From: Aurantiochytrium sp. KH105
Taxonomy: Eukaryota > Sar > Bigyra > Thraustochytrida > Thraustochytriidae
Assembly: GCA_003116975.1 (NCBI GenBank)
Contig: BGKB01000080.1
Location: 1 to 64,000 of the forward strand
Direction: 5' to 3'
Length of the DNA: 64,000 nt
Position 1 is the stretch's first letter. Each line of letters begins with the position of its first letter. The notes below the pieces were generated by a model that did not search any database, was not told where the DNA came from, and saw only the letters and a list, made by a program, of their open reading frames with translations. A program made the position numbers and the translations under genes. Below are positions 7,054 to 57,509 of the stretch, piece by piece.

Positions 7054-7953
7054 ATATCCGGCGCAACTCAACAAACTCAATTTTATCTGAATCACGATCG
7101 AGAGCTCAAGAAAGGAAAGATGACGGCCACCATTTTTCAACTTGCGAAAATCTGGCTCCTTGACGAAATGTATTTGTTTCCTCCAGAAAATTGATCAAGT
7201 CGCGAGCTTCGACGAGAAATAGCCTCTCTCAATAACCATGAGGCTTGAGGTGAATAAGAACAAGCACTCCATGTGAACGCAAGTAGTGACGCGATGCGAT
7301 CTGGCCATGGTCCGACGCGACGCGCACTGCTTACGATGTGCAGGGCTGCGATGCGTTATGGTGCGGAAAGAAGCGAAAAGGAAGCATGAGCCAACAAAAA
7401 AAATCTTTCCGTCAGCAACAAACACCCTCGTCACCGTGTGATACGAGAGCAAAACCAAACACGAGCAGACCTCGGCCAAAGCGCGCGGAGGCTGACGAGG
7501 CCGAGCCGGCGCGGGACGGCAGTGGGGCGGCGTGCCCCGCCGGTCGCCTCGCGAGCAGCAGCTCGCAGTGCCGACAGGTGAGCCGGCGCGGCGAGGCTGA
7601 GCGCAGCAGGTGCATGTGGTTCAGGCCCTCTGTCTCTCTATCTCTCTCCCCACGGACCCACGTCGCGGGCTCAAGCCGCCGGCAAAGGCGACCACGAGCG
7701 AGCAAGCCTCGGGAGGCAGCTTTGCACGTCGAGACTAACGCAGGAAACCTCAGTGCGTGGACACCGCCAGAGCCGGCGTTCATATCTCCGCGATAGACGA
7801 CCGTGGAACCGTTTACTCGCAGCAGCAAGGCGCAAAGACATTCTCATTTCTCCTTCTGCTCGGCGCTGCCGCCACTGTCGAGCAACCCGGTGCGCATAGG
7901 ACTGGCGTCCCCGCTGAGGACGCGTAGGACGTGTGTTTACTAGCACGACAAGT

Positions 7954-22049: not shown

Positions 22050-25000
22050 ATGGTGACGAAGGAGCACACGAAACCTGGAGATGAAGTTTTCGTCGTTGTC
22101 CGAACAGCGTTCTCGCCCAAAGAAGCAAAAACTCTTTTTGGCCCCGGGTGGCGCCACAAAGTGGTTCGTGGGGTCATTTCCGATGTGGTGCGAAAGGCCA
22201 GAGCACGAATGGTGCGGCTCGAGGGACTTCCTGAAGCCCGGAGTATTGCCAGCCGAAACTTATGGTCCTCGCGTAAGCTAGCCGAGCTCAATCTCGCGGA
22301 GCTGGAACGCAAGCGTCAAGGTGGCGACTGGCACGCAAGCCACGAGGGTGGTCACGCGCCAGATTTGGTGGTCGACCACAATGGCGATTCAGAGACCGAG
22401 AGACAACAACTCGTTGAAAATGAAGACGCTGTGCACACCTTTCCCATGGTTACGTCGTCGAGCCATCGGCGTTTAGCTGACGAAGAAGGAGAAGCTGAGC
22501 ATCGACGAGCTGTCAACGCAGAGTGTGGCGTCGAGAATGATACCGCCAGCAAAATTCACGAAGGCGCATCAAGATCGTCAGCAATTCCTGCTTCTTCTTC
22601 TTCTTCTTCTTCTTCTTCTTCTTCTTCTTCTTCTTCTGTTGCTGCTGCTACTGCTGCTACTTCGATGGAAAATGACTCTATCGACGCCGCAAGGCCAGAT
22701 CGTGACGGACGTCCTGAGCCGGAAGGCGTCGCCGCGAAACGGAGGAAACGCACTCATCTAGCAGTTGATTTGCCCGTCAGTCAGGATGGCAGCGAAGGCT
22801 CTGTTCACTTGTCAGACGTGCATGATCATCACAGCGAGCATGAATTGACTCAATCGACAAACTTGACCTCGGCAACAAATGAGAACGCAGACGTGCCGAC
22901 TTCGGCGAGACGCGGTCCAGAGCAGCTCACCGAAGAGGACTTACACAGTCAAGGAATGAACGTAAACGACGAGGAGGGCGTGCGATGGGAGTTGCAAGAT
23001 GGTAGCGCGAGCGATGGGGAGGCCAGGCCTGATTCGCAGCCCCGGTCTGTCGAGACTACTCTGTCCCGGACGGAGGGTGGATCTACCAATGCAGTTGAAA
23101 GTCAAGAATCTCATCAAAGATTACAGAGCAGAAATAGAGATGTAGAAACGTGCTCGGATCATCAAAGCGAGGCAAGCCGCAACGATACTGAAGCGCGCGA
23201 AAAGCTAGCAGGGCAAGAGGAGCTGGGAATACCCCCATCCTCGGTGCTCCCGCCTCTTTCGACAGGTCACAATGCGCGTCCCCAGAAACCGGGTGTCTCC
23301 ACGAGACTTTTGTGGGATGATCGGCAGGAATCGAACGATCGCTCTGCGCTCGCATACTTTAAGGCGTTTTTCATCCAGGGAAGGTTTTTGAAGAAGCTTG
23401 TGGCATGCACGAGCACCAATTTAAATCGTGTTGGAGAGGAACCTCTTCGCGGCGAAGCCGAGTTCTTTCAATATTGCGGTCTTCTTCTCAACATGACCTT
23501 GTACAATGGCGTTGAGCCCGCAGATTGCTGGAGCGGTTCGAGTCTCGGTTTTATAGCGTATCCTGATTTTTCTCGCGTCATGCCTGCGCGAAGATTCCGA
23601 GCCATCACAACAGCGATAGCTTTTTCTGATGAGGATATGCCTGTAATGGATGAGGTATCGTCGGGAGATAACGAAGTTTCCGATCGCGGCCCATTGTATC
23701 ATCGGAACAGTTTGCAGCAGATTATGGACGGCTTCAATTCCGCTCGCCAAGTCTTCGTTCGTGCTGGCGGCGCGCTTTCGTGCGGTGTAATTGATGAGGA
23801 GTGCGCGGGATCAGACCCAAATCTGCCGGGAGAGTCGGGCGACTTTGCAAGTCCCGGGAGTAAAGGTTTTCCTTTAGCACACGTGCCGCGAGCAGTGAGT
23901 CAGGATCGAGACTTTCTTGGGTCCGAATTGCACGGACTCTTTTGCGCGCAGACAGGAATTTTGCTGCGCCTGGAAGCTGTCGATAACGAATGGTCGCCAG
24001 GTCGGCTTGGAAGTGACCCTGATAATATGCTTGGCTATACCGTGTGTCAACGTCTACTCGGGCCGCTGCTGCAAGGTTCCCGCGAAAATGTGCACGCGGA
24101 AGAGGCGGATTCCAAGGCTCGTGTCTTGTATTGCGAGCCTCGGTACGCGGGCCTTAAAACGGCGGCAGGGATGAAGAACGTTCATGATGTGGACTTTGTT
24201 GGCGAACTTTCCGGCTCGGCTCTGGCTTTAATGCCACCAGCGCGGGACTTGCGCGGAAAGACATGTCGCTTTTCGTACAAGACGGTGGTAGACAACGTCA
24301 GCCTCTACGTCTATGAGCCAGTGGATGTGCGACCTTTTATGCTGCTTTCCACAATAGGGGAGAGACCTTCTCTCGCTGCCCGCGGTGCTTTGGAGGTACC
24401 AAGATTTTACAAGGAATTTCGAAGTAGGCATTTGCAGGTGAGTGAGCTCAACATTGGTCGGCGCTGGCAAGTTGGCTTGCTTGCCTCGATGTTGTCGATT
24501 TGCGTCACGGATGCATTTTTCGCTTCAAGATTCTTTTGCCCCCAAGCCTCTGTACACTACACGGTGGGAATTGACGCATTCCGACAAGCGCTCATTTCGC
24601 AATTACGGGGTGATGCGACACTGCGTCTTGCCGAGGAGGATCAGGGCACGAGCATGCGTGACTCCGAGACAGCCTCGGCGGCGGAACAAGGGACGCATCC
24701 TCAGTCTCTGGGGATTGGGGTCAGAGGTCGGGACAGCTCTGGTGCAGGCGCCGGATTGGATCCCAGTCTGTCGAACACAGCTCCCTCGGATCTACGAGCG
24801 ACCGCGATTGTGGCAAAAATATGGAAACCAAAGATGATCCTCGAGCAGCTTTCTTTGCTCAACAAGGAGCACCATTTATGGCGTGATCCATATCCGAATC
24901 CGCGCTGTAAGGACTGCATGCACTTTAACAAGTCGCCCGTTCGGCGCGGAAGCAAGCATTGCATTCTTTGCAGCAATCAGGCCAAGATAAATGCAGGCGC

Positions 25001-25091
25001 TAGCACGCTGATTGGTCGTCACGTGCACGCTATCTGTAAAGAATGTGAGCAGGACCATGTTGCGATGCATCGTCAGCTGCGCGAGGTCTGA
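22050..25091 (+). CDS. PiggyBac-derived transposase-like protein, probably domesticated
   Basis: A 1013-residue intact reading frame from an ATG at 22050. Residues about 430-850 follow the piggyBac (DDE_Tnp_1_7) fold: LAYFKAFF and a GLLLNMTLYNG block, then GVIDEECAG with Asp582 at the first catalytic position. At the second catalytic position, where active enzymes have a CDN-type motif, this protein reads LYCEPRY (Glu696), and the GVDxxDQ motif of the third Asp is replaced by LQVSELNIG before the RRWQVGLL block. The C-terminus (about 953-1002) is a Cys/His-rich zinc module (CKDC, CILC, CKEC), as in piggyBac transposases. The N-terminal 400 residues are low-complexity, including an in-frame Ser run coded by a TTC repeat. 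Loss of two of three acidic residues with an uninterrupted frame suggests host use as a DNA-binding protein rather than active transposition. Codon use is less biased than in its neighbours. Confidence 0.82.
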   Translation: MVTKEHTKPGDEVFVVVRTAFSPKEAKTLFGPGWRHKVVRGVISDVVRKARARMVRLEGLPEARSIASRNLWSSRKLAELNLAELERKRQGGDWHASHEGGHAPDLVVDHNGDSETERQQLVENEDAVHTFPMVTSSSHRRLADEEGEAEHRRAVNAECGVENDTASKIHEGASRSSAIPASSSSSSSSSSSSSSSVAAATAATSMENDSIDAARPDRDGRPEPEGVAAKRRKRTHLAVDLPVSQDGSEGSVHLSDVHDHHSEHELTQSTNLTSATNENADVPTSARRGPEQLTEEDLHSQGMNVNDEEGVRWELQDGSASDGEARPDSQPRSVETTLSRTEGGSTNAVESQESHQRLQSRNRDVETCSDHQSEASRNDTEAREKLAGQEELGIPPSSVLPPLSTGHNARPQKPGVSTRLLWDDRQESNDRSALAYFKAFFIQGRFLKKLVACTSTNLNRVGEEPLRGEAEFFQYCGLLLNMTLYNGVEPADCWSGSSLGFIAYPDFSRVMPARRFRAITTAIAFSDEDMPVMDEVSSGDNEVSDRGPLYHRNSLQQIMDGFNSARQVFVRAGGALSCGVIDEECAGSDPNLPGESGDFASPGSKGFPLAHVPRAVSQDRDFLGSELHGLFCAQTGILLRLEAVDNEWSPGRLGSDPDNMLGYTVCQRLLGPLLQGSRENVHAEEADSKARVLYCEPRYAGLKTAAGMKNVHDVDFVGELSGSALALMPPARDLRGKTCRFSYKTVVDNVSLYVYEPVDVRPFMLLSTIGERPSLAARGALEVPRFYKEFRSRHLQVSELNIGRRWQVGLLASMLSICVTDAFFASRFFCPQASVHYTVGIDAFRQALISQLRGDATLRLAEEDQGTSMRDSETASAAEQGTHPQSLGIGVRGRDSSGAGAGLDPSLSNTAPSDLRATAIVAKIWKPKMILEQLSLLNKEHHLWRDPYPNPRCKDCMHFNKSPVRRGSKHCILCSNQAKINAGASTLIGRHVHAICKECEQDHVAMHRQLREV
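22590..22636 (+). repeat. TTC trinucleotide repeat coding poly-Ser
   Basis: About 15 uninterrupted TTC/TCT-type triplets inside the piggyBac-derived gene give a serine run of about 15 residues, followed by GCTGCT coding Ala. Repeat length can change without a frameshift. Confidence 0.9.
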
Positions 25092-27772: not shown

Positions 27773-30358
27773 TTAGTCGAGGTCAATACCGGCGAGCTCA
27801 TCAAAGCCAAAGGCAATGTTGAGGTTCTGCGTGCAGTGGGTGGCAGCACCGAGGTTGAGGTTGTCAACGGTGGAGACGACAACGAGACGGCCAGTCTCCT
27901 GGTCGAGCGTGAAGCCGCCAACAGCACCGTGGTGGCGGAACATGTTGTCGCGAACGGTAGGCGCCTCCTTGGTCACCTTGACGAGGGGCTCGTCCTTGTA
28001 GTACTCCTGGAACTCGGCGCGGATCTCATCCGTGGAGGGGTAGTTGCCACCCTGGGTAGGCTCAATGTGGACGGTGGAGGTCATGTGAATGCCCTGAAAC
28101 CACGAGGCGACATGGGGCATAAAGGCAACCTGGGAGCCGAGGTGCTTGGTGCACTCGCGCTCGTGCATGTGGGAGACCAGCGAGTAAGGGATGATGTTGT
28201 CCTTGAGAACCTGGGGATCGTTCTTGTCGCTGGGGTTGGTGCCGGCGCCAGAGTAGCCCGAGACACCAAAGGAGCTAGGCACAGTGCCGCTCTGGAGCTT
28301 GAGAAGGCCGCCAGACATGGGCTGAATGATGGGCATAAGGGCAAGCTGAAGGGCAGAGGCGTAGCAGCCGGGGTTGGAGATGCGCTTGGCGCCCTTGAGG
28401 GCCTCGCGCGCGCCTGGTCGCTCGGGAAGACCGTAGACCCAGGAGTCGTCAAAGCGGTAGTCAGCGCCGAGGTCGATCATGGTCGAATCCGGAGCGAACT
28501 TTTCGAGGGCGTCGACAAACTTGGGGGCAAGGCCGTTGGGAAGTGCCAGAACCCAAATGTCGACCTCCCGCGCGGCGTCGTCCTCCGCGAGGTCCTCGGG
28601 CTCGAGCGCGTTGAAGCGCAGAGTGTCGGCGACACCACGGACGGCGGCGGTCTTATCGAGGCCGAAGCAGTCGATGACGCGCTGGCCAGAGAGCGCGCGG
28701 GAGCTGGCAACGGTGAGCTCCATGTTGGGGTGGTCGGTGAGAAGCTTGACGAACTCGCGGCCGACATATCCGCGGGCACCGAGAAGACCGACCTTGACAG
28801 GGTTGGCGTTCGGGGTGTACTCGTGGGCGTACTTGACGGCCTTGGTCTCAGGCGGGTCAATGACCAGGCGCGGGGCCTTCTCGGCGGACCAGCCCTTGAG
28901 GGGGTGGCCGCGGTTGTACCAAGCGACGTTGGAGTCGCTGGCCCAGTGGCAGAGGGTGCCATCGGCGGCGGAGGATCCGGCCTTGAGGGAGCCCTGCTTT
29001 GCCTCCTCGACGGTCCAGGTCCAGGCGAGACTGGGGAAGTCGCGCTGCATGCACTTCCAGAGCACATGCTCGTAGCCGTTGCCGTGGTGCTGGGGAGAGA
29101 GCACAATCTCGTTGAGGACGGGGGGTAGATCGGCACCGAGCTTGGGGAGACGGACGATGCGGCCCGCGCAGTACGGCTTGTCGGCAGAGGGGCCGTAGAT
29201 GTAGGTGGCCTCGACGACGGCATCGCCCTTGGGGAGCGGGGAGAGGAGCGGGGTGGACGCGTCGCCCTCAATGCGCTGCACGGGGATACCAGTGGTGAAG
29301 AGAGTGCCCGCACCAGCGTGAGTGAAGAGTTCGCGGACCATAGTGTCGGCGCCGGTGATGGCGACAGCGGTGGAGCTGGGGACGCCGTCGAGGATGCGCT
29401 TGATCTCGTTGAGCTTGAGGAGCGTGCCTTGGCGGCCCTCGTAGTCCTTGGAAGCGAGCATCTCGTACTCGTTGGCCATGTCAATAATGTTGACGACCTT
29501 GCCAGTGTCGTCGTCGAGCCAGCCGCCCTTGGAGCTGGCGAACATGACGCGCATGGGCTGGAGGGTGTGGACAAGGTCGCGAGCGGCGACGTCGGCGTTG
29601 ATGTTGAGAACCTGGCCGTCACCGGAGGTGCCGAGGGAGGTGAGAACGGGGACAACGTTCTCCTCGAGGGCCTGCTTGATATCGCCGTCGTTGACGCCCT
29701 TGACGGCGCCGACGAATCCGAGCTCGGGCTTGTCGACCTCGGCGCGGAAGACGCCAGTGGGGAAGGCCTTGGCGTTGATGCCGGCCTGCTGCATGCGCTT
29801 GACAACGCGCTCGTTGAGCTCGGTGAAGATGCGCTGGGCAACCTCGAGGGTGGCCTCGTCGGTGACGCGGCTGCCGTTGATGTACTGGGGCTCGACGCCC
29901 TTGCGGGCGAGTTCATCGTTCATCTGGGGGCCGCCGCCATGGATGACGACGGGCTTGAGGCCGGCCTTGTAGAGAATGGAGCAGGTCTGGACGAGGGTGT
30001 CGAGCTCGTACTCGACGACGTCGCCGCCGACCTTGATGACGGCAAAGGCGGAGCCCTCGAAGTCGCTAAACCTGTCGAGGTAGTACTCGACCTCTTCCGT
30101 GTTGGAGACTGCGCGGAGGATCTCGGGGATGACCTCCTTCTTGACGGCGCGCGAGGCGAAGCCGCGCTTGGCCATGGCTTGTGCGCCCGAGGCGCGGAGC
30201 CGCTGCTGGAGCCGCTGCAGCTGGTTCTCCTTGCGCGTGGCGGGGCGGAGGCTCCTTGCCACGAGCGTGCGCCGCTGCATCTGCACCTGTGCGGCCGTGG
30301 GCGTCGCCGCCGCGCGCCGCGCCGCCGCGCTCGCGCCGCGTCTCAGCATGGTCTTCAT
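27773..30358 (-). CDS. Mitochondrial N-acetylglutamate kinase / N-acetyl-gamma-glutamyl-phosphate reductase fusion (ARG5,6 type)
   Basis: An 861-residue precursor carrying the second and third steps of arginine synthesis: phosphorylation of N-acetylglutamate, then NADPH-dependent reduction to the semialdehyde. Residues 1 to about 70 are Arg/Ala-rich without acidic residues, typical of a mitochondrial presequence. The kinase domain begins near 75 (VIKVGGDVV, VIHGGGPQMN). A GNAT-like (DUF619/NAT) domain follows at about 360-490 (VLNEIVLSPQHHGNGYEHVLW, WYNRGHPLKGW). The reductase begins near 518 (VGLLGARGYVGREF), with the catalytic cysteine at about 665 in SNPGCYA. In fungi the precursor is cut into two enzymes; whether it is here is unknown. 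TTA, CTA and TCA codons are almost absent, indicating strong codon bias. The ATG is at 30358. It pairs functionally with the carbamoyl-phosphate synthase 14 kb away. Confidence 0.95.
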   Translation of the reverse strand: MKTMLRRGASAAARRAAATPTAAQVQMQRRTLVARSLRPATRKENQLQRLQQRLRASGAQAMAKRGFASRAVKKEVIPEILRAVSNTEEVEYYLDRFSDFEGSAFAVIKVGGDVVEYELDTLVQTCSILYKAGLKPVVIHGGGPQMNDELARKGVEPQYINGSRVTDEATLEVAQRIFTELNERVVKRMQQAGINAKAFPTGVFRAEVDKPELGFVGAVKGVNDGDIKQALEENVVPVLTSLGTSGDGQVLNINADVAARDLVHTLQPMRVMFASSKGGWLDDDTGKVVNIIDMANEYEMLASKDYEGRQGTLLKLNEIKRILDGVPSSTAVAITGADTMVRELFTHAGAGTLFTTGIPVQRIEGDASTPLLSPLPKGDAVVEATYIYGPSADKPYCAGRIVRLPKLGADLPPVLNEIVLSPQHHGNGYEHVLWKCMQRDFPSLAWTWTVEEAKQGSLKAGSSAADGTLCHWASDSNVAWYNRGHPLKGWSAEKAPRLVIDPPETKAVKYAHEYTPNANPVKVGLLGARGYVGREFVKLLTDHPNMELTVASSRALSGQRVIDCFGLDKTAAVRGVADTLRFNALEPEDLAEDDAAREVDIWVLALPNGLAPKFVDALEKFAPDSTMIDLGADYRFDDSWVYGLPERPGAREALKGAKRISNPGCYASALQLALMPIIQPMSGGLLKLQSGTVPSSFGVSGYSGAGTNPSDKNDPQVLKDNIIPYSLVSHMHERECTKHLGSQVAFMPHVASWFQGIHMTSTVHIEPTQGGNYPSTDEIRAEFQEYYKDEPLVKVTKEAPTVRDNMFRHHGAVGGFTLDQETGRLVVVSTVDNLNLGAATHCTQNLNIAFGFDELAGIDLD

Positions 30359-40766: not shown

Positions 40767-43394
40767 TCAAGCCCTTTGGTTCCTCTGCTCGGTGACGAGT
40801 TTGGCTTGAGGCTTGGAAATGTCAAAGCCGGACAGATGCTCGGACGCTTTGCGAAGACCACTTCCGACATTGGAAACCCAGGACCGCAGCGAGTTCAGCG
40901 AGACGGTCGTCATGGCGAGATCGCGCGGAAGACGTGACCAACGCTGCGCAGCAATGCTCTCGGCAACACGTTTCCATCGGGGCGCCATGCGACGCCACAG
41001 TGAGTCTTCTGGGGCGCGCTGACCAGAAAGTTCAATTTCGCGTGCAACGCGAAGAAACTGTTGCTTCCACATGGCCTGAAAGTCCTTGCCGCGCTTGCGC
41101 ACAATGCGCAGCACATTGAGAAGTGCCTGAATCTGACTTCCCACAGGGTTGAGGGCCTCGGAGATGGACTTTCCACCGCCCTTGCCACCCAAGAGGGCCG
41201 TTTTGAGACGGCTCAGATGCTCGCGCACGTGGCTGGGGCGAGTCTTTGCGGTCGTGAGAATGGCCTTGAGTGCGACAATGAGCACACGCAAGATCGAAGG
41301 CTCAGTAGCGCTCTCCTTGGTCAGCAAGAGACGCAAGACGGAAATACCTGTGTCCTCTTCCCCAAGAAGCAAGAGACGCATGATGGAAATTCCGTGAGAG
41401 CCGTCTTCCTCTCCGGCCAAAAGGGTCTGCATAAGCGACACGCCGTCCTGATTACCTGCGCCAAGAGCCGCGCCCAGGCGAATGTACCCACCGGAGAAGT
41501 CGACGCTCGTGCCGAGCATGAGACGCGCGAGTGAGTCTTCGCCGCCGAGCTCGCCTTCGAAAAAGAGATCTGAAATGGAAGGAGTTCCCGCAGTGAGTAG
41601 ATCAATGAGCGAACGTGGCGGCGCCTTGCCACGGCGGAGCTCTCGGTGAGTCGGTGCAGGGTCCAGCTCGCCGCGCTGCGCTGCCTTGACAAAGTACGCC
41701 GTAACGGCTGCAGCATCAGCGTCGCCTTCGCGACTTCCTTGCGAGTCGTCCTCGTCGTCCTCGTCTTCCTCCTCGCCTTCGTCGTCGTCATCATCAATAA
41801 AGTCCTCTGTAGCCTCGTCCGCGACAATCGCATCGTCACTGAGGACTTCTTCGATCTCTTCAAGGTCTTCGCCTGGATATGGCGTCTGCGAGGACTTGGT
41901 GCTGCCCTTGCGACGGAAAAGTCGCCGACGACGCTTACGCGGCTGGGTCTTGAGAAAGAGGAGGCGCATGATGGACGGACGCTGGGAGCTTCTTTCAGCA
42001 GCGAGCATCAGACGCAGAATGGAGCCCTGCGATCCGGACTCGCTTCCGAAAATGTACGTCGAGAGTGCTGTGCGATGGCCCTTGTGGTTCTCGAAGCTCG
42101 TCATAATCATTCGCGAGATGGAAATGCCAGTGCCCGTTCGGTCGGCAACCATGCGCCGCAAGATGGACACGCGACCTTCCCGTTCGCCCTCGAGCATGTA
42201 GTCAAAGATGGATGGTTTGCCCTGGAGCATAAGACGCAGCAGAGACATGGGCGCATTCGCCGCCTCGTTGGCATTTCTTTGCAAGTCCTCGAATTGCAAG
42301 GCGGACTCGAGCACGCTCGGATACTCGACCCCATCAAAGGAATCGCGAAGCGTGAGAAGATGCGTCAGTGAAGGGTAGCCATTGACCTGGTCGCCTTCAA
42401 AGAGCATGCGGGCCAACGGAGTGTGAGGCGAGGCCTTTGTTCCGATAAATTGTCTCGTCACGGAGGGGTTGCCCAAGAGGAGAAGCTGCGCAATGCTGCG
42501 CGATGAACGTATCGAGCGGTCACGGGAGAGCATGAGCTGCATGATGGAAAGGCCTCCCTCGGGCGGAGGCGTGCAAAGTCGTCGCATGAGCGAAGCCGGC
42601 TCGGCGTTCTGCTCACCGTCGAGCATGAGCCGGATGAGGCTGGGTTGGCCTCGCAAAAGTAGACGAAACATGAGCATGCGCTTGCGCATCAAGAGCCACA
42701 GCAAGGATGGACGTCCTTGGCGCATCTGCTTGAAGACTGAAAGCTGGCCTTCGTCGTGTCCGAAAATGAGCTTGCGCGCATGTGGATGGAGCATGAGACG
42801 GAAAATGCCGATTTTGCGCGGATGCGCAGGCGCCATGTGTAGGCGCAGTTTCCAAAGGCAGGGACAAAAGCCGTCGGCCATGTCAAGACCAATGATCATC
42901 GTACCAGCGTCGGCGGTGCTGGCAAAGGGTTTTCCGCCGCTACCTCCGTACCAGCGACTCGTACGGCCGAGATTGGAGACGAACTGGATTCCATCGAGGT
43001 AGCTCCCTTGGCGTCCCTTGATTTGCACAATGTATTCGCGCTCGGGAATATGCAAGACAAAGTCTTCTTGTTGTTCTCCGCCAGCGACATTGCCATACGT
43101 CTTCACAAAGCCATCCTGGAACTCGAACTCAATCGCGTCGACGTGTCTGCCCGAGCGTACGCGTACGACGGCGAGGCGTCCATGGTCTTCGTCGCCACTG
43201 ATGCTGGCGTTGTCGAAGACGTCGGCCTCCTCCTCCTCCTCCTCCTCCTCGTTCTCCCCGATGTCGTGGAAGTGGTCGAGCGTCTCGGCGTTCTGGTCCT
43301 CGTGGCCCATCGCGGCCCTTCGCAGCTCCTGCTCGGCCGCGGCCCAGTCGCCCTGCGCGCAGCTCCGCACCGCCTTGCCCAGGGCCGTGCTCAT
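40767..43394 (-). CDS. Jacalin-like lectin domain plus about 27 short SIxRLLLxG repeats
   Basis: An 875-residue protein. Residues about 72-188 resemble a jacalin-like (beta-prism) lectin domain: VRSGRHVDAIEFEFQDG, then FVLHIPEREYIVQIKGRQG, YLDGIQFVSNLGRTSRWYGG and GTMIIGLDMADG. From about 196 to 482, and again from about 612 to 725, short units recur with the consensus P/x-S-I/L-x-x-L/M-L/M-L-x-G: for example PSLIRLMLDG, MSLLRLMLQG, PSIMRLLFLK, VSLMQTLLAG, ISIMRLLLLG, ISVLRLLLTK. I count about 27, spaced 9-25 residues. The two blocks are separated by a basic stretch (about 486-500) and an acidic stretch (about 508-570). The C-terminal 150 residues are helical and Arg-rich. I know no family with this repeat. 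The ATG at 43394 is clear, and no signal peptide is seen, so a cytosolic or nuclear role is more likely than secretion. Confidence 0.75.
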   Translation of the reverse strand: MSTALGKAVRSCAQGDWAAAEQELRRAAMGHEDQNAETLDHFHDIGENEEEEEEEEADVFDNASISGDEDHGRLAVVRVRSGRHVDAIEFEFQDGFVKTYGNVAGGEQQEDFVLHIPEREYIVQIKGRQGSYLDGIQFVSNLGRTSRWYGGSGGKPFASTADAGTMIIGLDMADGFCPCLWKLRLHMAPAHPRKIGIFRLMLHPHARKLIFGHDEGQLSVFKQMRQGRPSLLWLLMRKRMLMFRLLLRGQPSLIRLMLDGEQNAEPASLMRRLCTPPPEGGLSIMQLMLSRDRSIRSSRSIAQLLLLGNPSVTRQFIGTKASPHTPLARMLFEGDQVNGYPSLTHLLTLRDSFDGVEYPSVLESALQFEDLQRNANEAANAPMSLLRLMLQGKPSIFDYMLEGEREGRVSILRRMVADRTGTGISISRMIMTSFENHKGHRTALSTYIFGSESGSQGSILRLMLAAERSSQRPSIMRLLFLKTQPRKRRRRLFRRKGSTKSSQTPYPGEDLEEIEEVLSDDAIVADEATEDFIDDDDDEGEEEDEDDEDDSQGSREGDADAAAVTAYFVKAAQRGELDPAPTHRELRRGKAPPRSLIDLLTAGTPSISDLFFEGELGGEDSLARLMLGTSVDFSGGYIRLGAALGAGNQDGVSLMQTLLAGEEDGSHGISIMRLLLLGEEDTGISVLRLLLTKESATEPSILRVLIVALKAILTTAKTRPSHVREHLSRLKTALLGGKGGGKSISEALNPVGSQIQALLNVLRIVRKRGKDFQAMWKQQFLRVAREIELSGQRAPEDSLWRRMAPRWKRVAESIAAQRWSRLPRDLAMTTVSLNSLRSWVSNVGSGLRKASEHLSGFDISKPQAKLVTEQRNQRA

Positions 43395-44486: not shown

Positions 44487-47400
44487 TTAAAGACCACGGG
44501 CCTGGGCCTCGGCCTCGTAGTACTCCTTGAGCGTAAGGGGCTCCATGTTCAGCTCGCCCTTCTCAATCTTGAGGTAGCACTCGGAGAGCATGGCGGCAAC
44601 CTGGGCGTTGGTGACGAGCTGGGTGCCGTAGTCAATTGCCAGACGGCGGACCTTGTAGTTGGTCTCCGTGCGGAGCGACTCGTTGTTGGAGAACATCCAG
44701 ACCTGGTCGACCTCGCCCTCCTGGACAAAGGTGTCGAGGCAGGGGACCTGGCCGCTCTCCTCCCAGTGGAGCTCGGTGACGGGAATGTCGTTGGCCTCGC
44801 AGAAGCGCGCGGTCTTCTCAGTGGCAAAGATGGTGTAGCCGGCCTCGACGAGGTTGCGGAGGCTGGGCTTGAAGTCCTCCTGGAGGCGGTCCTGGATGGA
44901 GACGAGGATGTTCTTGCGCTCCGGCAGGGTGTACGCAAGGGTGGAAAGGGTAGACTTGAGGAAGGCCTCGTGCACGTCCTTGCCGTAGCAAGCGACCTCA
45001 CCGGTGGAAGCCATCTCGACGCCGAGCTTGGGGTCAGCGCCAGCGAGACGCTTAAAGGAGAACTGCGGGACCTTGGTGCCCACGTAGGTGGTCGGGGTGG
45101 CGCCCTTGCCGCCGAGACCAAGGTCCTTGCTGGCGAGCCAGTCGGGCTCACCGGCGCCGACCATGGCGGTGGTGGCAATCTCGATAAAGTCAGCGCCGAC
45201 AGTCTTGGACGAGAACGGGAAGGAGCGCGAGGCACGGATGTTGGCTTCGATGATCTTCACCGAGCCGTCAGGGCTGGCGATAAGCTGCTGGTTGAAGGGG
45301 CCAGTGATGTTGAAGGCCTTGGCGATGCGGCGCGTGGTCTCGCGGCACTTCTCGAGGACCTCCTCGCTGAGGGTCTGGGGCGGGAGCATGAGGTGGGCGT
45401 CACCGGAGTGCACACCGGCGTTCTCAACGTGCTCCGAGATGGCGTGGGCAATGACCTCACCGTCGCGAGCGACGGCGTCGACATCGATCTCGCGGGCGTT
45501 CTCAATAAAGGCGGTGAGCACAACGGGGTGGTCGCGGCTGACCTCGCCAGCGCGCTGGAGGTTCTTCGAGAGCTCGGCAGCGTTGTAGGCGACGCTCATG
45601 GCGGCGCCAGAAAGCACGTAGCTGGGGCGCACGAGCACGGGGTAGCCAACCTTGTCGGCAAAGTCAAAGGCATCCTCCGGGGTGGTGAGGCGGGACCACG
45701 AGGGCTGGTCAATTTCGAACTTGTCGCAGACGCTCGAGAACTTGTCGCGATCCTCGGCGGAGTCAATCATGAGCGGCGAAGTACCAGCGATCTTGGTGCC
45801 GTAGTTGTGCATCTGGAGGGCAATGTTGTTGGGCAGCTGACCACCGACGGAGACAATGGCCTGCTCGCAGCCCTCGAGCTCGTAAATGTCGAGGACGCGC
45901 TCGAGCGAGAGCTCCTCAAAGTAGAGCTTGTCGCACTCATCAAAGTCAGTCGAGACGGTTTCGGGGTTGTAGTTGACCATGACGCTCTTCTTGCCAAGCT
46001 TGCGCAGGGTGCGGATAGCCGACACGGAGCACCAATCGAACTCGACACTGGAGCCAATGCGGTAGACACCAGAGCCGAGAACCATGGTGCCGTGGTCGTC
46101 AAAGCTAACGTCGGACTCGTCACCGTTGTAGGTGGTGTAGAGGTAGTTGGTGGCAGCGGGGGCCTCGCCGGCAACAGTATCGATCTGCTTCACAACGGGG
46201 ACAATGCCAAACATCTTGCGGCGGTCGCGGACGAGGAGCTCCTCAGAGTTGATGCGCTCGGCGATCTGGCGATCCGAGAAACCGGACTTCTTGGCCTGGA
46301 GGAGGAGGGTGGAGTTGAGGCGGTCGAGCGAGCCGGCCTCGGTCATGAGCTGGTCGAGCTGGCACAGGCGCTGAAGCTTGTGGAGGAACCAGGTGTCAAT
46401 GGCGGTGTGCTGGTTGACACGGTCGACGGACCAGCCGCGGTCCATCATGGCGTGGGCAATGGCGTAGGGGCGGACATCCGAAGGCTGCTCGAGCTCCTCA
46501 ATGAGCTCGGCCTCCGAAGAGGGCGGCAGGTACATGTGCTTGTGCGGCTGGAAGCCCTCGATGGAGGGGTCGACCATGCGCATAGCCTTCTGGAGGGACT
46601 CCTCCCAGGAGCGGCCAATACCCATGACCTCACCGACGGACTTCATGGCAGAGCCGATCTTGCGCGAGACAAGGTCGAACTTGGTCATATCCCAGCGGGG
46701 GATCTTGGTGACGACGTAATCGAGGGAAGGCTCAAAGCAGGCAGTGGTGCGCTTGGTGACCTGGTTGGTGATGTCCGGAAGCTGGATGCCGAGCGAGAGC
46801 TTGGCAGCCACAAAGGCGAGCGGGTAACCGGTGGCCTTGCTGGCAAGAGCCGAGGAGCGCGAGAGACGGGGGTTAACTTCGATAATGGCGTAGTCGTCGC
46901 TGTGGGGGTCGAGAGCGTACTGGATGTTGCACTCACCGATGATGCCGAGGTGCTTGACCGTCTTGATGGCGGTGTCGCGGAGCATCTGGTAGTCGTGGTT
47001 GGAGAGCGTCTGCGAGGGGGCAACGACGATCGAGTCACCGGTGTGAATACCGAGGGGATCAAAGTTCTCCATGTTACACACGGTGATGCAGTTATCAGCG
47101 GCATCGCGCACGACCTCGTACTCGACCTCCTTCCAGCCGAGCATCGACTTCTCGACGAGGATCTGGGGCGAGGTGGAGAAGGCCTTGCGGGCCATCTCGC
47201 GAAGGTGGGTCTCGTCCTTGCAGATGCCGGAGCCAAGACCACCAAGGGCAAAGGCACTGCGGATCATGCAGGGGAAGCCGACCTTGTGGGCAGCGACGAC
47301 AGCATCGTCGATGGTGTTGACGGCAAAGGACGGGGCGAGCTTCTCGTTGATCTCGTTGAGCTTGTCCGAGAAGATGCCGCGATCCTCGGTGGCGATGATG

Positions 47401-49067
47401 GACTCGACCGAGGTACCCATGACCTTGACGTCGTATTTGGAGAGAATACCCTTCTCGTAGAGCTCAACACCAACGTTGAGGGCGGTCTGGCCACCCATGG
47501 AGAGAATGAGGCCGTCGGGCTTTTCGCGGGCGATGACCTCCTCGACAAAGTCCATGGTGACGGGCAAGAAGTAGACGGTGTCGGCTTGGTTGGCGCCCTC
47601 GAGGTTGGTCTGCACCGAGGCAATGTTAGGGTTCATAAGGACCGTCTCGATGCCCTCCTCCTTGAGGGACTTGATGGCCTGGTTGCCAGAGTAATCGAAC
47701 TCGCCGGCCTGGCCGATGGAAAGACCACCGGAGCCGAGAAGGAGAACCTTCTTGGCCTCAACGCGGGTGTCGGGGACCTTGCGCGCGTCAAAGACGGCGC
47801 CAACGGAGGACTTGCCGTCGCGGACCATGTTGACAAAGTCGTCAAAGAGGAATTCCGTGTCGGTGGGACCACCCTTGGCCTCCGGGTGGAACTGGGCCGT
47901 AAAGTAGGGCTTGGTCTTGTGCATGATACCCTCGTTGGTGCCGTCGTTGCGGTTGACAAAGAGGGGTTCCCAGTCCTCCGAGAGGGTCTCGGTGCGGATG
48001 GCGTAGCCGTGGTTCTGGGGCGTGATGAAGCACTGGCCAGTGCGCAGGTTGAGCACAGGCTGGTTGACACCACGGTTACCAAAGCTCATCTTGTAGGTCT
48101 CAGCGCCAGCGGCGAGAGCGGTGAGCTGGTTACCCATGCAGATACCAAAGATGGGCTTGTCGAAGCCGCTCTCGAGGACCTTGCGGAGGTTGGCGACGGC
48201 CTCGGTGGCCATGATGGGATCACCGGGGCCGTTACTGAGGAAGAGACCGTCGAACTCGTGCACGTGCTCGGCAAAGGGAAAGTCATGCGGGACGCGGTGG
48301 AGCTCGACGCCGCGGCGGACGAGGTTGCGGATGATGTTGTTCTTGATACCGCAGTCAAGGGCGAGGAGCTTGACGGGGTTGCCGGCACCGTACACGATGC
48401 GGTCAGTGCAGGAGACCTCCTGGATGAGGTTGCGCGCGTTGACGTCGACGAACTCGATCTCGCTGTGGCCAGGGGGCTTGTAGGCAGGCTCGAACTCAAT
48501 CTTACCCTTCATGCTGCCGTGCTCGCGGATCTTCTTGGTGAGGAGACGGGTATCGATACCGTAGAGGCCGGGGACCTTTTCCTCACGGAGCCAGGAGCTG
48601 AGGCTGCGGCCGGACTCCCAGTTGCTAAAGTGGTGCGAGTAGTCGCTGACGAGGAAGCCGCCGGCGTGGATCTGGTCGCTCTCAAAGTGCTTGGGGAGGC
48701 CGAACTCGTCGACGACGCCCTTGTCGGGAACACCGTAGTTACCGACGAGGGGGTAGGTGCTGACGAGGATCTGGCCGCGGTACGAGGGATCGGTGAGAGC
48801 CTCGGGGTAGCCGACCATGGCGGTGTTGAAGACGACCTCGCCGGCAACGCTTTCCTCGTGGCCAAAGGACATGGCGGTGAAGCGGGAGCCATCCTCGAGC
48901 GCGAGGGTGGCGGTGCGGACGCCGCCGCTGCCCATGCTGGAGCCTACAAAGCCGCGGGCGGCAGCAGGCTTGCTGAGGTCAGAGGTGCCCTTGCTCGCGG
49001 ACGAGGAGAGCTGCCTGACGGCGGCCTTGGAGGCCGCCACGCTGCGGGCGCTCTTGACGCTCCACAT
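44487..49067 (-). CDS. Glutamine-dependent carbamoyl-phosphate synthase, mitochondrial single-chain type (CPS III-like)
   Basis: A 1526-residue single-chain enzyme making carbamoyl phosphate from glutamine, bicarbonate and two ATP for arginine (and possibly pyrimidines). Residues 1 to about 45 are Ser/Ala/Lys/Arg-rich without acidic residues until about 30, suggesting a mitochondrial presequence. The glutaminase part (about 50-420) has the catalytic Cys310 in FGICMGNQ and the FHPEAKGGP His/Glu pair, so it uses glutamine, unlike mammalian CPS1, which lacks this Cys. Two ATP-grasp synthetase halves follow (VLLLGSGGLSIGQAGEFDYSG; VMVNYNPETVSTDFDECDKLYFE), then a C-terminal MGS-like regulatory domain (about 1370-1526). 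No aspartate transcarbamylase or dihydroorotase is fused. The codon-aligned antisense strand stays open over about 1430 codons, showing near-total avoidance of TTA, CTA and TCA. The ATG is at 49067. Confidence 0.96.
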   Translation of the reverse strand: MWSVKSARSVAASKAAVRQLSSSASKGTSDLSKPAAARGFVGSSMGSGGVRTATLALEDGSRFTAMSFGHEESVAGEVVFNTAMVGYPEALTDPSYRGQILVSTYPLVGNYGVPDKGVVDEFGLPKHFESDQIHAGGFLVSDYSHHFSNWESGRSLSSWLREEKVPGLYGIDTRLLTKKIREHGSMKGKIEFEPAYKPPGHSEIEFVDVNARNLIQEVSCTDRIVYGAGNPVKLLALDCGIKNNIIRNLVRRGVELHRVPHDFPFAEHVHEFDGLFLSNGPGDPIMATEAVANLRKVLESGFDKPIFGICMGNQLTALAAGAETYKMSFGNRGVNQPVLNLRTGQCFITPQNHGYAIRTETLSEDWEPLFVNRNDGTNEGIMHKTKPYFTAQFHPEAKGGPTDTEFLFDDFVNMVRDGKSSVGAVFDARKVPDTRVEAKKVLLLGSGGLSIGQAGEFDYSGNQAIKSLKEEGIETVLMNPNIASVQTNLEGANQADTVYFLPVTMDFVEEVIAREKPDGLILSMGGQTALNVGVELYEKGILSKYDVKVMGTSVESIIATEDRGIFSDKLNEINEKLAPSFAVNTIDDAVVAAHKVGFPCMIRSAFALGGLGSGICKDETHLREMARKAFSTSPQILVEKSMLGWKEVEYEVVRDAADNCITVCNMENFDPLGIHTGDSIVVAPSQTLSNHDYQMLRDTAIKTVKHLGIIGECNIQYALDPHSDDYAIIEVNPRLSRSSALASKATGYPLAFVAAKLSLGIQLPDITNQVTKRTTACFEPSLDYVVTKIPRWDMTKFDLVSRKIGSAMKSVGEVMGIGRSWEESLQKAMRMVDPSIEGFQPHKHMYLPPSSEAELIEELEQPSDVRPYAIAHAMMDRGWSVDRVNQHTAIDTWFLHKLQRLCQLDQLMTEAGSLDRLNSTLLLQAKKSGFSDRQIAERINSEELLVRDRRKMFGIVPVVKQIDTVAGEAPAATNYLYTTYNGDESDVSFDDHGTMVLGSGVYRIGSSVEFDWCSVSAIRTLRKLGKKSVMVNYNPETVSTDFDECDKLYFEELSLERVLDIYELEGCEQAIVSVGGQLPNNIALQMHNYGTKIAGTSPLMIDSAEDRDKFSSVCDKFEIDQPSWSRLTTPEDAFDFADKVGYPVLVRPSYVLSGAAMSVAYNAAELSKNLQRAGEVSRDHPVVLTAFIENAREIDVDAVARDGEVIAHAISEHVENAGVHSGDAHLMLPPQTLSEEVLEKCRETTRRIAKAFNITGPFNQQLIASPDGSVKIIEANIRASRSFPFSSKTVGADFIEIATTAMVGAGEPDWLASKDLGLGGKGATPTTYVGTKVPQFSFKRLAGADPKLGVEMASTGEVACYGKDVHEAFLKSTLSTLAYTLPERKNILVSIQDRLQEDFKPSLRNLVEAGYTIFATEKTARFCEANDIPVTELHWEESGQVPCLDTFVQEGEVDQVWMFSNNESLRTETNYKVRRLAIDYGTQLVTNAQVAAMLSECYLKIEKGELNMEPLTLKEYYEAEAQARGL

Positions 49068-50615
49068 CTTGTCGCGCTGCGCTCGCTGCTGCTGCGCTCG
49101 CTGCTAGCTAGTCGCGGGTTCGCTTGCGGGTTTGCTGCGCGCGGCCTGGTGGCTGGCCGCGGCGGCTGCTGCTGCTGCTGCTGCTGCGCTGCAGGAAGCT
49201 AGGCGCAGCGGCTGGCTGCACCTGGCTGCTTGGGGTTTTGCTGTTTGCTGTGCAAGCGCCAGGCTGCCTGCCTGCCTGCCTGTCCACGCAGCCAGACAGA
49301 CAGACAGTCAGACCCACTGAGACACGGAGGGAGAGAGACAGACAGACGGACGGGTACGAGCGGAGGAAGCAGGAGGACGCCGGGGCCCGCGCGCGGACGC
49401 GGTCCGCGCGCTCGCTCGCTCGCTCGCGTGCTCGCCGCGGCGCGGCGGCTGGCGGGCGTGCAGGCGGGCGGGCGTGCGGGCGGGCGGGGCTGCGGACGGG
49501 CGCGCGGACGGGAGGTCCTGGTTTTGAATTTGAAATGCCGCCTCGAAAATTTGGATTTTTGAAGCGTCGCCGCGTTTCCTTTGTTTTCTTTTTCTTATTT
49601 CTTTCTTTTATCTTTTACATTCTTTCCCGTCGGGTCTCGCTGTGGGTGTGCATTGGGGTTCCTCCTCCCCTCTGCTCCTCACTGCGCACCCCTGCCTGCA
49701 CTCGCACCAATGCTGCTCAGTGGCGCCGCCTCTGCACCGCGCCATAGCCCACTTGCAGCGCGCATTCTGCACTTTGGAGATGCGCCGTACGTACTGCGCA
49801 GGCGAGCAGAAGAAAGTGAGATGAGACAGGGTGCTAAGGAGGGAAAAGCGGAAAGTGCGGCCCAGTGGAAGCCCAGAGGAAAGCGCGCGCGCGCCAGAGG
49901 AGACGCGGACAGGGAGACCCCCGACTTGCCTTGCTCCTTGATTGTTTTCTCGTTTTCTTTCACTCCCACAGCCACCATCTTGCACACCTGCGCGAGCGAC
50001 GCGAGCGCTCGCAGCCAATCAAGACAACCTGGTTGTTTGCAAGTGCGCGATTGGCGCCACCGTAAATCGCCTATCCGTCTCCCACAAGTGGAACAAACCG
50101 CCCCGCGCCGCCGCAAGTGCGGAATGCGCCGCGTCAGCGGCTCCAGGAAGACTCCGCGCCGCCGCCACTCCTTGCCCGCAGCGCGCGTGACTGCGGGGCT
50201 AGGCGTTTGCCCACATGCGCGCAAGTGCGGGCTTAGGTGCGGGCTGTGCGGCGTTTGCCCGCAGCGAGGTCGCTGCGGGGTACGGTGGGGGCGAGCGAGC
50301 CTGGGCTCGTCGCGTCCAACCACCGGCGTCTTTGGCCAGGGAGTTGCTGCTGTATTCTTCTGCTAGAATGCTATACATCAATGGAGCGAGCGAGACCAGC
50401 GCAGCTGCAGCTGCTGCGCCTTCGTTCCCTCAACCTCTTTACTTACCCTTCGCAGTCTGAGAGTCGGTGGCCGATTCCATACCGGCAGCAGCAGCGCAGC
50501 CAGCCAGGATGGAAGCGTGCAAGGATCGATCGAGGGAAGGAAGTATTCGCTCGCTCGCTCGCTCGCTTGCTCGCTCGCGCCGTGGCCACACGGGTTGTTT
50601 TGATTTGTTTTCGTT

Positions 50616-54035: not shown

Positions 54036-57000
54036 TCAGTCGGTCTCCGGCTTAGCAGCCTGCTCGCGATGCTTCTGGAGAATCTCGTCGACCTTTTGCG
54101 AATGAAGCTGACGCGCATGCACACGCTCGTGCAAAATGGCGTCCCGCTGGTTCTGCACGGCAGTCTCCTTCTCGCGAATCTGCTCGGCAGACTTGGGCGA
54201 AGAACGCTTGTCAAGCTTGCTCTGCAGCGAGGCCGGCAGCGATGGCGACTCGTCCCGATCATCAGGTGCAAAGGATACCTGGTTCGCGACGAACTCCTGC
54301 TTGAGCGCCTTGACCTGCAAAACGTACTCCTGGTGCGAGTGCGCAGATTTTGCTTTTGCCGCCAACTTGCTCTGGCGGCGCTGCTGGGCACGTGCCTCCT
54401 TGTTGCGAATGACATCGCCCGTGGGACTACGATACGTCTTGAGACGCTCCTTGAGTCGCTTCGGCAACGGCGCGCTCGAGATATCCTCCTCTGCGAAACG
54501 AGGCTTGGTCTTGCGCAACGTCCAGACCTCGCGCACCTTGGCAGCGTGCGCAGCGAGCTTATCGCAGCGCGCAGCGAGCAGCTCGTGACGCCGCGCCCCA
54601 GCGGCGGCTTCCTTGGCCAAGAGAGCAGACGGAGACTTCTTGGCCGCCTCCAGCGAAGCAAGACGCGCTCGGAGGCGCTTCGGGAGCGCCACGGCAACCG
54701 TCTCGCCCTTGGTCAGAAGCTGCATCGAGTCCCGGTACGTGTCACGCACCTGGCGCACCTTGGCAGCGTGCGCCAGGTGCATGCTGGCCGCATGAGCCTT
54801 GGCCTCGCGAGCAAGCTGGGCCCGCTTCGCCGCCAGCTCGAGCTTGCGCAGCACGGCAGCGTCCGTGGGCTTGCGCAGAGCCGCCAGCCGTGCTGCCAGC
54901 GCCGCCGGCAGCTCCACGCCGGCAGGCGCTCCCTCGGGAAACCTCGCCTCGGTCTCCTTGGCCTGCCGCCGTGCCATGGCCCGACGCACGTGCGTGCGCG
55001 CCGCAGTCCGCCGCGCGCGCAGAAGCGCCTCGCGCCGCGACGCAGCGGCCTCTTCGCGCCGCAGCGACGCCTCGCCGCCGCGCGCCTGGGCCTGCGATGC
55101 CAAGCTCTCGGCACGTGCAGCGAGTCTCTTTGGGAGCTTCAACGGCTCTGGGGACCCGCGCACAATCCAGACCTGGTTCTGCTCGAGGTCCGCGTGCAGC
55201 GCGCGCGCGCGCTCGCGGGCAGGGGCGGCCTCGCGCGCGCGGTGGCGCAGCGACTCCAGCCGGATCTCGCGACGCTGCGAGGCCGCGGCCAGCTTGCGGC
55301 GAATCGCCTCGGGACGCGGTCGCGTCAGCGAGGCCAGACGCGAGCGAAGGTGCTCGGGCAGCTCTGCGGCCGCGGCCTCTGCCGCAAAACGGGGCTCGCG
55401 GGCCTTGGCAGCCGCGCGCGAGGCCGCAAGACGGTTGTGCTTGCGAGCCTTGGCAGCCTTGGCCGCCAGCGACGCACGCAGGGTATCGCCCGCGGCGGCC
55501 TCCTTGCTTACGAGGCCCTCAGGCGTCCAGCGAGGCGCGAGCTTGGCGGCGCGCCGCGCCAGAGCGCGCGGGAGGGGCGTGGCCGTCGCCACCTGCCCAC
55601 TAGCGAGCTCCATGCCGGTCTCAGCCATGCTGTGCTTGAGAGCCACAGCGGCACGGGCAGCCTCACCTCGCTGATGCGCAATGTGCGCACGCGCGGCGAG
55701 GGCGACGGAGCGCCGTACGCTGGCGATCTCGTTCTTGCGCAAAATGGCCTCTGGCGTGCGCCGACGAGCACCTTCGAGGCGGGTGCGCAGATTTTCCGGA
55801 AGACCAGCGGGGATCTTGTTGTTGCCGAAGCGCGGCTCGAGCTTCTTATTGGCGCTCAGCTTAGCGACCTTGGCGCTGTGCTCGGCAGCACCTGCCATCA
55901 CACCCTCGAGCATATCACGACGACGCTGCTCGGCAGCGGCCTCCTTGGCGAGCTGGGCCTCCGAGGTCCAGGCCGGTTTACCTGCTCGCAGCATGACAAG
56001 CCTCTTGGTGAGTCGCTTTGGAAGCGCGACAGGCGTGGCAAGCTTGGTGTCAGCGCTCGTGGCCAAGAGGATGTTGTTGCTCTCGAGACTTTCCTTGAGA
56101 GCGCGTGCGCGCGGTACGGCCACTTCATTGTGGACACGGGCCGCCTGGGCCTTGGCGGCTGTGTGCAGCTCTGCGCGCTTAGCGGCGAGAGCCTCCTTGC
56201 GCAGCAAGGCCTCCTTGGTCGGCCTGGTCAAGGCGGCCAGCCGCGCACGAAGCCGCTCGGGCAGCTGCACCGAGGCAGCGTCGACCCCCGCCGCCGCCGC
56301 CGCCGGTTCCGCTGCGCTGCTGGCTTCGTTGAATTCTGGAAAGCGCGCCTCGGTGGTTTTCGCCTCGCGCAGCTTGGACACCTGGGTCAGGTGGGCGCGG
56401 GCTTTCGCCATCTTCATCTCCATCAGCTCGCGCTGACGCGCCGCGGCACCTTCATGCGAGGCAACGACCGAGTCCGGGGTCCACTTGGGAGCCAGACGCT
56501 CAGCGCGAAGAGCAAGACGCTTGGGAAGCTTGACACCCACAGCGGGAGCGCCAGGATTTGCGGACCCAAAGTCGACCTCATTTGCAACAAAGGCCTTCTT
56601 TGCTGCCCGGGCCTGCTCAACAACGACCATGTGGTCGCTGGCACGCTTGGCCTTGGCCTCGAGCACAAGGCGATGCTTGGCTTCTGCCAATGCTTCTTTG
56701 CGCAGAATCGCTTCCTTGGTCGGGCGTCGGAGACTTTCAAGTCTTGCCTTAAGGTTGGCGGGCAAAAAGTCTGGCGCGGAGGCCGTCTCGAATCTTGCTT
56801 CGGTGGCCTTGGCCTCCTTGCGCGCAGCGACGGTCGCGAGATGCGCGGCTTGCTTGTCCGCGACGGCGCGAAGTCTAGCTTCGCGGCGTGCGGCGGTCTG
56901 GGCCTCCTTTTCGAGCACCGGCTTGGCTCGGGCCGCAGACGCCGCCTTGAGGTTACGCAGGCGCTTTTGCAGCCGGCCCGGTAGCTTGACGGGAGCGGGG

Positions 57001-57438
57001 GGCGCGCTGGGCTGGGCTGCCCCGGCGCTGGCGCCGCAGCAGCCCAAAATGTTCCTGTTGAACTCATCTTTGCGCGCGCGCACTTCTTGGACCTTGGCCC
57101 CGAATTGTGCTGCGCCCATGACTTTGGCCTTGAGCATTTCCTCGCGCTTCATCTCGACCTGCTCTTCCTTTTGTCGGATTTGTTCTGCGCTTGGTCGCCC
57201 TGGCAGCGAGGCCAGCCGCTTCTGAAGGCGTTCTGGGAGCTGCGGTTTGCCCGCACCGTTCATGCTCTTGACCATGAGAGGACCTTCTGCGATCTGGTTG
57301 CACGCCTGCGTCTTGTTTTCTTCGCCAGCGTCGATGGAGCAGTTGTTGTTTCCACGCGCCTTGGTCGGCGTGCCGGGCTTGCGCTCTGTGAGCGGGTTGG
57401 CAGGCTCGTTCATCTTCATTGACGCGAGCCGCTGCTTG

Positions 57439-57472
<34 letters not shown>

Positions 57473-57509
57473 CGCCCAGGTCCACAAAGTACGCCGTCGA
57501 TCGCATCAT
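54036..57509 (-). CDS. Seven-fold tandem stathmin-like repeat protein (14 alternating A/B units)
   Basis: A 1157-residue protein. After a short N-terminus with a Q10 run (about 14-23), residues 91-1157 are 14 units averaging 76 residues, alternating strictly between two types. A units read LPxRLxxRLxxLxRPTxEAILRKExLA, then an Ala/Lys-rich helix with a His, ending in an Asn-rich motif such as SNNIL or NEVDF. B units read LPKRLxxRAxxLAxxWTPE, then KEAAAxxRR and a His-x3-Val helix, ending EARFPE or EPRFA. Aligned by eye, A matches stathmin's first tubulin-binding repeat (EEIQKKLEAAEERR, REHEKEV, EENNNF) and B its second (ANKENREAQ, KDKHIEEVR). Stathmin sequesters two alpha/beta-tubulin dimers along such a helix, so seven A+B pairs could bind many dimers. 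The homology is a hypothesis. The start is the first ATG of the frame (MMRSTAY) at 57509. Confidence 0.8.
57443..57478 (-). repeat. CAG/CAA repeat coding poly-Gln in the stathmin-like protein
   Basis: Ten glutamine codons, mixed CAG and CAA, near the N-terminus of the 14-unit protein. The mixture of codons suggests an older or stabilised tract. Confidence 0.85.

Follow-up and report, generated by a model that had tools for sequence, protein, structure and literature searches.

Fourteen alternating units, about half of them stathmin R1-like, in a predicted protein of the thraustochytrid Aurantiochytrium sp. KH105

We describe a gene of Aurantiochytrium sp. KH105 whose protein product, 1157 amino acids long, carries 14 units of two alternating types, A and B. 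The A units, taken together with unit 14, bear a specific likeness to stathmin repeat R1 that survives our profile and shuffle controls, to the extent that sequence comparison can speak to it. Our favored reading is that the gene encodes a multivalent, putative tubulin-binding protein built from stathmin-R1-like helices, and we consider the case for this reading to be evenly balanced. Stathmin is known mainly as a small animal protein that holds two tubulin dimers, with one continuous helix running through its successive repeats.

The gene lies on the minus strand at positions 54036 to 57509 of the window, by which we mean the whole 64,000-nucleotide stretch of contig BGKB01000080.1 that was analyzed. 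An open reading frame check found a single unbroken frame, with its start ATG at 57509 and its stop at 54036, and the encoded protein has a pI of 10.94 and contains 21% alanine and 12% arginine. Residues 1 to 90 (57240 to 57509) precede unit 1 and hold a poly-Gln run; a search for a family match to this region found none. The opposite strand of the gene is also open, for 971 codons, and codon usage scores the same on both strands (0.107), as would be expected if GC-rich DNA had stayed open by chance and specified no real protein. What separates the strands is a second copy of the gene, 98% identical and located on another contig, in which the frame is kept. The two copies differ at 68 bases, which fall on first, second, and third codon positions as 10, 0, and 58 (58 of 68 at third positions of the 1157-residue frame, p = 2.5e-20). 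Counted by codon, these are 54 synonymous and 13 nonsynonymous changes with one gap codon, for a dN/dS of 0.082. Within the frame the copies diverge by 2%, whereas in the two 1500-base flanks the aligned positions differ by about 7 and 9% (102 and 123 positions) and a further 126 and 176 columns are gaps. Because the differences concentrate at third positions and dN/dS is 0.082, the gene is real and under constraint. The comparison with the second copy rules out a chance or noncoding frame, a reading to which we give next to no credence, and the long antisense frame is a by-product of composition.

The second copy is probably the other haplotype, since the tubulin-family matches in this 76-Mb assembly, 23 in number, are also largely equal-score sets on different contigs, a pattern suggesting that both haplotypes were assembled separately. 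Apart from the gene itself and its second copy, a DNA search of the genome with the gene returned 51 short matches, every one of them within bases 32 to 92 of the query, the region that encodes the poly-Gln run. Elsewhere in the window, a glutamine amidotransferase fused to carbamoyl-phosphate synthase (44487 to 49067, minus strand) lies antisense to a similarly long plus-strand frame (44766 to 49202); the latter has no Pfam match, which indicates that long antisense frames occur in the GC-rich DNA here. Four further frames with recognizable domains lie in the window. A single plus-strand frame of 4137 codons (7933 to 20346) with BEACH, PH-BEACH, armadillo-like, and WD40 domains encodes a neurobeachin-type protein, and a plus-strand frame of 1013 codons (22050 to 25091) carries a DDE_Tnp_1_7 (Transposase IS4) domain (E = 4.6e-11) that we take to be of piggyBac type. 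On the minus strand, one frame (27773 to 30358) joins amino-acid kinase, N-acetyltransferase, and semialdehyde dehydrogenase domains and is probably a fused arginine-synthesis enzyme, and another, of 875 codons (40767 to 43394), has one jacalin-like lectin domain at residues 71 to 170.

The initial annotation counted 14 units of about 76 residues, a count and length that our alignment confirms: the units begin at residues 91, 176, 249, 328, 416, 496, 570, 646, 717, 792, 867, 942, 1015, and 1091, are spaced 71 to 88 residues start to start (mean, 76.9), and open with an LP pair in 14 of 14 cases. All are encoded on the minus strand. The units of type A are unit 1 (56985 to 57239; placed in this type by position and best pairwise match) and, from the unit alignment, units 3 (56529 to 56765), 5 (56025 to 56264), 7 (55575 to 55802), 9 (55137 to 55361), 11 (54687 to 54911), and 13 (54240 to 54467). 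The alignment likewise gives the units of type B as units 2 (56766 to 56984), 4 (56265 to 56528), 6 (55803 to 56024), 8 (55362 to 55574), 10 (54912 to 55136), and 12 (54468 to 54686), together with unit 14 (54039 to 54239), which is B by position and closest in sequence to unit 1 by both alignment and tree.

Mean local alignment scores are 94.8 between A units (21 pairs), 81.4 between B units (21 pairs), and 60.9 between A and B units (49 pairs), against a baseline of 31.4 for shuffled pairs (n = 300). When all 3432 equal labelings (7 of 14) were tried, the observed contrast was reached only by the alternating one and its mirror. The alternation described in the initial annotation is thus the best of the equal splits, but it is not strict, as unit 14 breaks it: the best pairwise match falls within a unit's own type for 13 of the 14 units, and the exception, unit 14, is nearest to the A-type unit 1 and does not have the ending typical of B. 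The unit tree joins units 1 and 14 with support of 93/91; the placement of this pair on the B side and the grouping of the other six A units are both weakly supported (68/90), and 8 of the 11 internal branches stay open. Copying of A-B pairs probably enlarged the array, and its two ends carry related units. The type-specific motifs are looser than was first described, with PTxEAILRKE exact in a single one of the seven A units, WTP or WTS in three of the seven B units, and an EARF or EPRF ending in five of those seven.

Codon comparisons bear on the age of the array. Between units, codons agree at positions 1 and 2 at rates of 0.468 and 0.468 and at position 3 at 0.334, and units that share a residue use the same codon at a rate of 0.379, where usage predicts 0.393. 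This saturation of synonymous sites between units leads us to regard the repeats as old. Tandem Repeats Finder, at a score of 150, found no array within the gene, and together with the saturated synonymous sites this rules out a recent tandem duplication at the DNA level.

Profile searches against the Protein Data Bank (PDB; 177635 distinct sequences, matches up to E = 10) connect these units to stathmin. A profile of all 14 units matched two chains, both of them stathmin constructs (9f07_C, E = 0.00079; 4f6r_C, E = 0.01). The same two returned with the pair profile (E = 0.0061 and 0.038) and with the A-unit profile (E = 0.017 and 0.019), the latter also matching one unrelated chain at E = 2.2. 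Unit 14 was joined to the A set for its pairing with unit 1, after its z of 2.1 had been seen, and the resulting profile gave 22 matches with a best E of 0.0015; 21 of these are stathmins, which are near-copies of a few genes and hence not 21 independent matches, and the sole non-stathmin is a spectrin chain at E = 2.6. Native-order chains were among them, stathmin-4 at E = 0.23 to 4.3 and stathmin at E = 2.0. A comparison of the sequences revealed that in 9f07_C and 4f6r_C alike the first part of R1 runs into the last part of R2, a fusion that probably explains why they outscore the native-order chains. Three column-shuffled profiles, two of which kept the heptad phase, had 0 PDB matches each. 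The B-unit profile matched no stathmin in the PDB, only betaine-homocysteine methyltransferase at E = 0.16 to 0.19. All of the stathmin matches rest on one short helical family. As for coiled-coil or spectrin-type repeats, no known long-helix family was matched, the spectrin chain having appeared in one search and not with the 14-unit profile.

The alignment of the profile of A units and unit 14 with the best native-order chain is ungapped over 64 residues and reaches into the Asn-rich end. This register, shared with R1 of native-order chains of the stathmin or stathmin-like domain (PF00836; RB3/stathmin-4, 1sa0_E; one-repeat 4f6r_C), takes in P-[ST], E, I, K, A, the basic pair, and the Asn-rich end, with the spacing P-[ST]-x-E-x-I-x2-K-x3-A-x2-[RK] in step with native R1. 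The register first proposed accordingly stands for the A units at the basic pair and the Asn-rich end and falls at His-x3-Val, as the His of the units lies three residues before the stathmin His in the HMMER alignment.

Shuffle controls sharpen the distinction between the two unit types. In the HMM control, the all-unit profile scored 19.9 bits against chimeric R1, a value reached by 0 of 1000 column shuffles; shuffles did as well in 5 of 1000 cases against native R1 and in 10 of 1000 against R2. When the profile of A units and unit 14 was set against native R1, shuffles equaled it in 1 of 1000 free and 0 of 1000 phase-keeping trials, so that the initial assignment of the A units to an R1-like type finds support in this control and in the PDB matches. 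The proposal that B resembles R2 is not supported: shuffles scored R2 at least as well as the B units did in 84 (free) and 187 (phase-keeping) of 1000 trials each, and in 55 of 1000 with shorter fragments. The B units fared better against R1 (12 free and 14 phase-keeping shuffles of 1000 as good; 5 of 1000 with the shorter fragments) and against the chimera (2 and 2 of 1000; 2 of 1000 with the shorter fragments), and both unit types are nearer to R1 than to R2. We reject a scheme with A as R1 and B as R2, the B units being no clearly closer to R2 than are shuffled profiles. Scores from hhalign were 25.1 for all units (shuffle maximum 15.8, 0 of 300), 26.5 for A, and 17.6 for B, each above all 300 of its own shuffles, with hhalign probabilities of 62%, 70%, and 8%, respectively; pairwise hhalign for A units and unit 14 gave a P of 2.9e-5. 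A rotation control was uninformative, since local alignment tolerates rotation.

Scored singly against chimeric R1, the units have mean Smith-Waterman z values of 3.23 for A and 0.97 for B, over a range of -0.8 to 5.2. Units 1 and 9 (z of 5.2 each) and unit 13 (3.9) are stathmin-R1-like by this score, and units 4 and 8, both of type B, fall below zero. Set against 1445 pieces of the window, unit 9 tops every piece with 6.2 bits; three of the ten best pieces come from the gene's own frame, including the top piece (5.0), and the best foreign piece scores 4.2. Of these pieces, 6% score at least as high as the median unit, with the gene's own pieces counted. Searches in the reverse direction returned little: when an HMM built from five closely related RB3-derived fragments was run on the 586 open stretches of the window, our frame was not among its eight best, and a genome search with a 47-residue piece of stathmin, without a working positive control, returned nothing, this gene included.

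These failed reciprocal searches are what one would expect of a long helical scaffold or spacer that has no role with tubulin, such as a nucleic-acid or membrane-skeleton protein, in which the helix starts look stathmin-like by chance. The composition, strongly basic and high in Ala and Arg, suits such a protein, and P-[ST]-x-E is a common helix start. Long helices are very numerous in the PDB, yet stathmins alone emerged from it as specific matches and shuffled profiles matched nothing; we consider the scaffold or spacer reading unlikely and continue with stathmin-R1-like helices as the better account.

A likeness to R1 is a narrower matter than membership in a family. PF00836, the Pfam Stathmin model against which the initial annotation proposed to check the protein, matched neither the whole protein nor any of the 14 units or 7 pairs up to E = 10, and genome-wide it again found no match, the positive controls of that search being equally silent. 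Nothing in Pfam or NCBIfam (E up to 10) or in PHROGs (E up to 1) matched the whole protein. Where a single unit or pair did match a Pfam family (best E = 0.011), we rejected the match, each coming from one member and being inconsistent with the others, and none of 600 pattern stretches in viral contigs proved to be a relative. Repeat-level similarity to stathmin is present in the A units and unit 14. The seven R1-R2 domains originally proposed are not supported, as the order R1-R2 is not found and the B units have no clear likeness to R2; nor do we find the spacing of 51 residues along a continuous helix, given the 71- to 88-residue spacing and the LP openings. Because a Pfam match, the R1-R2 order, and continuous-helix spacing are all lacking, the protein is not placed in the stathmin family. 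Among the matches listed in the open-license PMC literature, none described stathmin repeats arrayed in tandem in a protist.

Several known systems offer points of comparison. In vertebrates, a stathmin-like domain holds two tubulins (PMC6408325) and uses an N-terminal peptide to cap alpha-tubulin (PMC13224075). The protein described here has 14 units where stathmin has 2 repeats, falls below Pfam detection, and is strongly basic (net charge per unit, +2 to +10), whereas the R1 and R2 fragments of stathmin have net charges of -1 and 0. Tandem stathmin repeats in one chain also occur in the four-repeat 'Stathmin-like domain R4' (4f61_I), which we take to be an engineered construct, probably from Mignot 2012. 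There the later repeats follow one another at 51 residues, a distance that as helix would span about 77 Angstrom; our protein is natural and longer, with repeats about 77 residues apart and proline-rich linkers between units. Drosophila stathmins, which are natural, reportedly bind tubulin with high and variable stoichiometry (Lachkar 2010); they are animal proteins and are not known to have more than a few repeats.

Prolines number 2 among the 546 residues of the helix cores and 54 among the other 521 unit residues (54 of 56 outside the core), a distribution that fits a model in which the units would be helices of about 40 to 45 residues, roughly 60 to 68 Angstrom long, parted by breaks; a hydrophobic-periodicity scan of the units gave no clear peak. 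The tubulin dimer is 80 Angstrom long, close to the length of a 51-residue helix, and one unit per dimer is therefore possible, though not forced. In the mechanism that we propose, each unit would be such a proline-bounded helix, with the seven A units and unit 14 built like R1 and the B units serving as diverged or specialized partners of the same fold. The helices, end to end, would each lie along one alpha/beta-tubulin dimer, such that several dimers may be held in a protofilament-like row, up to 14 of them if the B units also bind. In keeping with such a reading, tubulin-family genes are present in the genome. Tubulin binding, its stoichiometry, the lining up of dimers, and the helical structure itself are all predictions from sequence. 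The strong positive charge leads us to lean toward a scaffold or coat, rather than a sequesterer, as the more likely role.

That same charge and the high pI would equally suit a basic helical-repeat microtubule-associated protein (MAP) that binds the assembled lattice, as do TPX2, MAP7, and MAP9, and that resembles stathmin by convergence. Such a protein would coat or bundle microtubules, and free dimers would not be held. MAP7 is a further example of a lattice-binding MAP. TPX2 has tandem, mostly helical C-terminal repeats that are needed for microtubule nucleation, at about 50 residues each in place of the 77 here (PMC5080731), and cryo-electron microscopy places MAP9 on the tubulin dimers of microtubules (PMC12667982). 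Neither TPX2 nor any other MAP family appeared among our Pfam or PDB profile matches, and we judge a lattice-binding MAP to be possible but doubtful. A more specific reading, rather unlikely in our estimation, would make the protein a natural tubulin ruler in which 14 stathmin-like helices, one dimer each, template a protofilament whose length is fixed. With 8 nm for each dimer, this would come to about 110 nm, and the A and B units would mark a two-dimer repeat.

If a stathmin-like array of this kind is natural to a protist, it would point to a tubulin-binding helix that predates animals and could be multiplied into a scaffold that sets the number of dimers held. Fragments with differing numbers of units may then be possible tools for holding tubulin in rows of fixed length.
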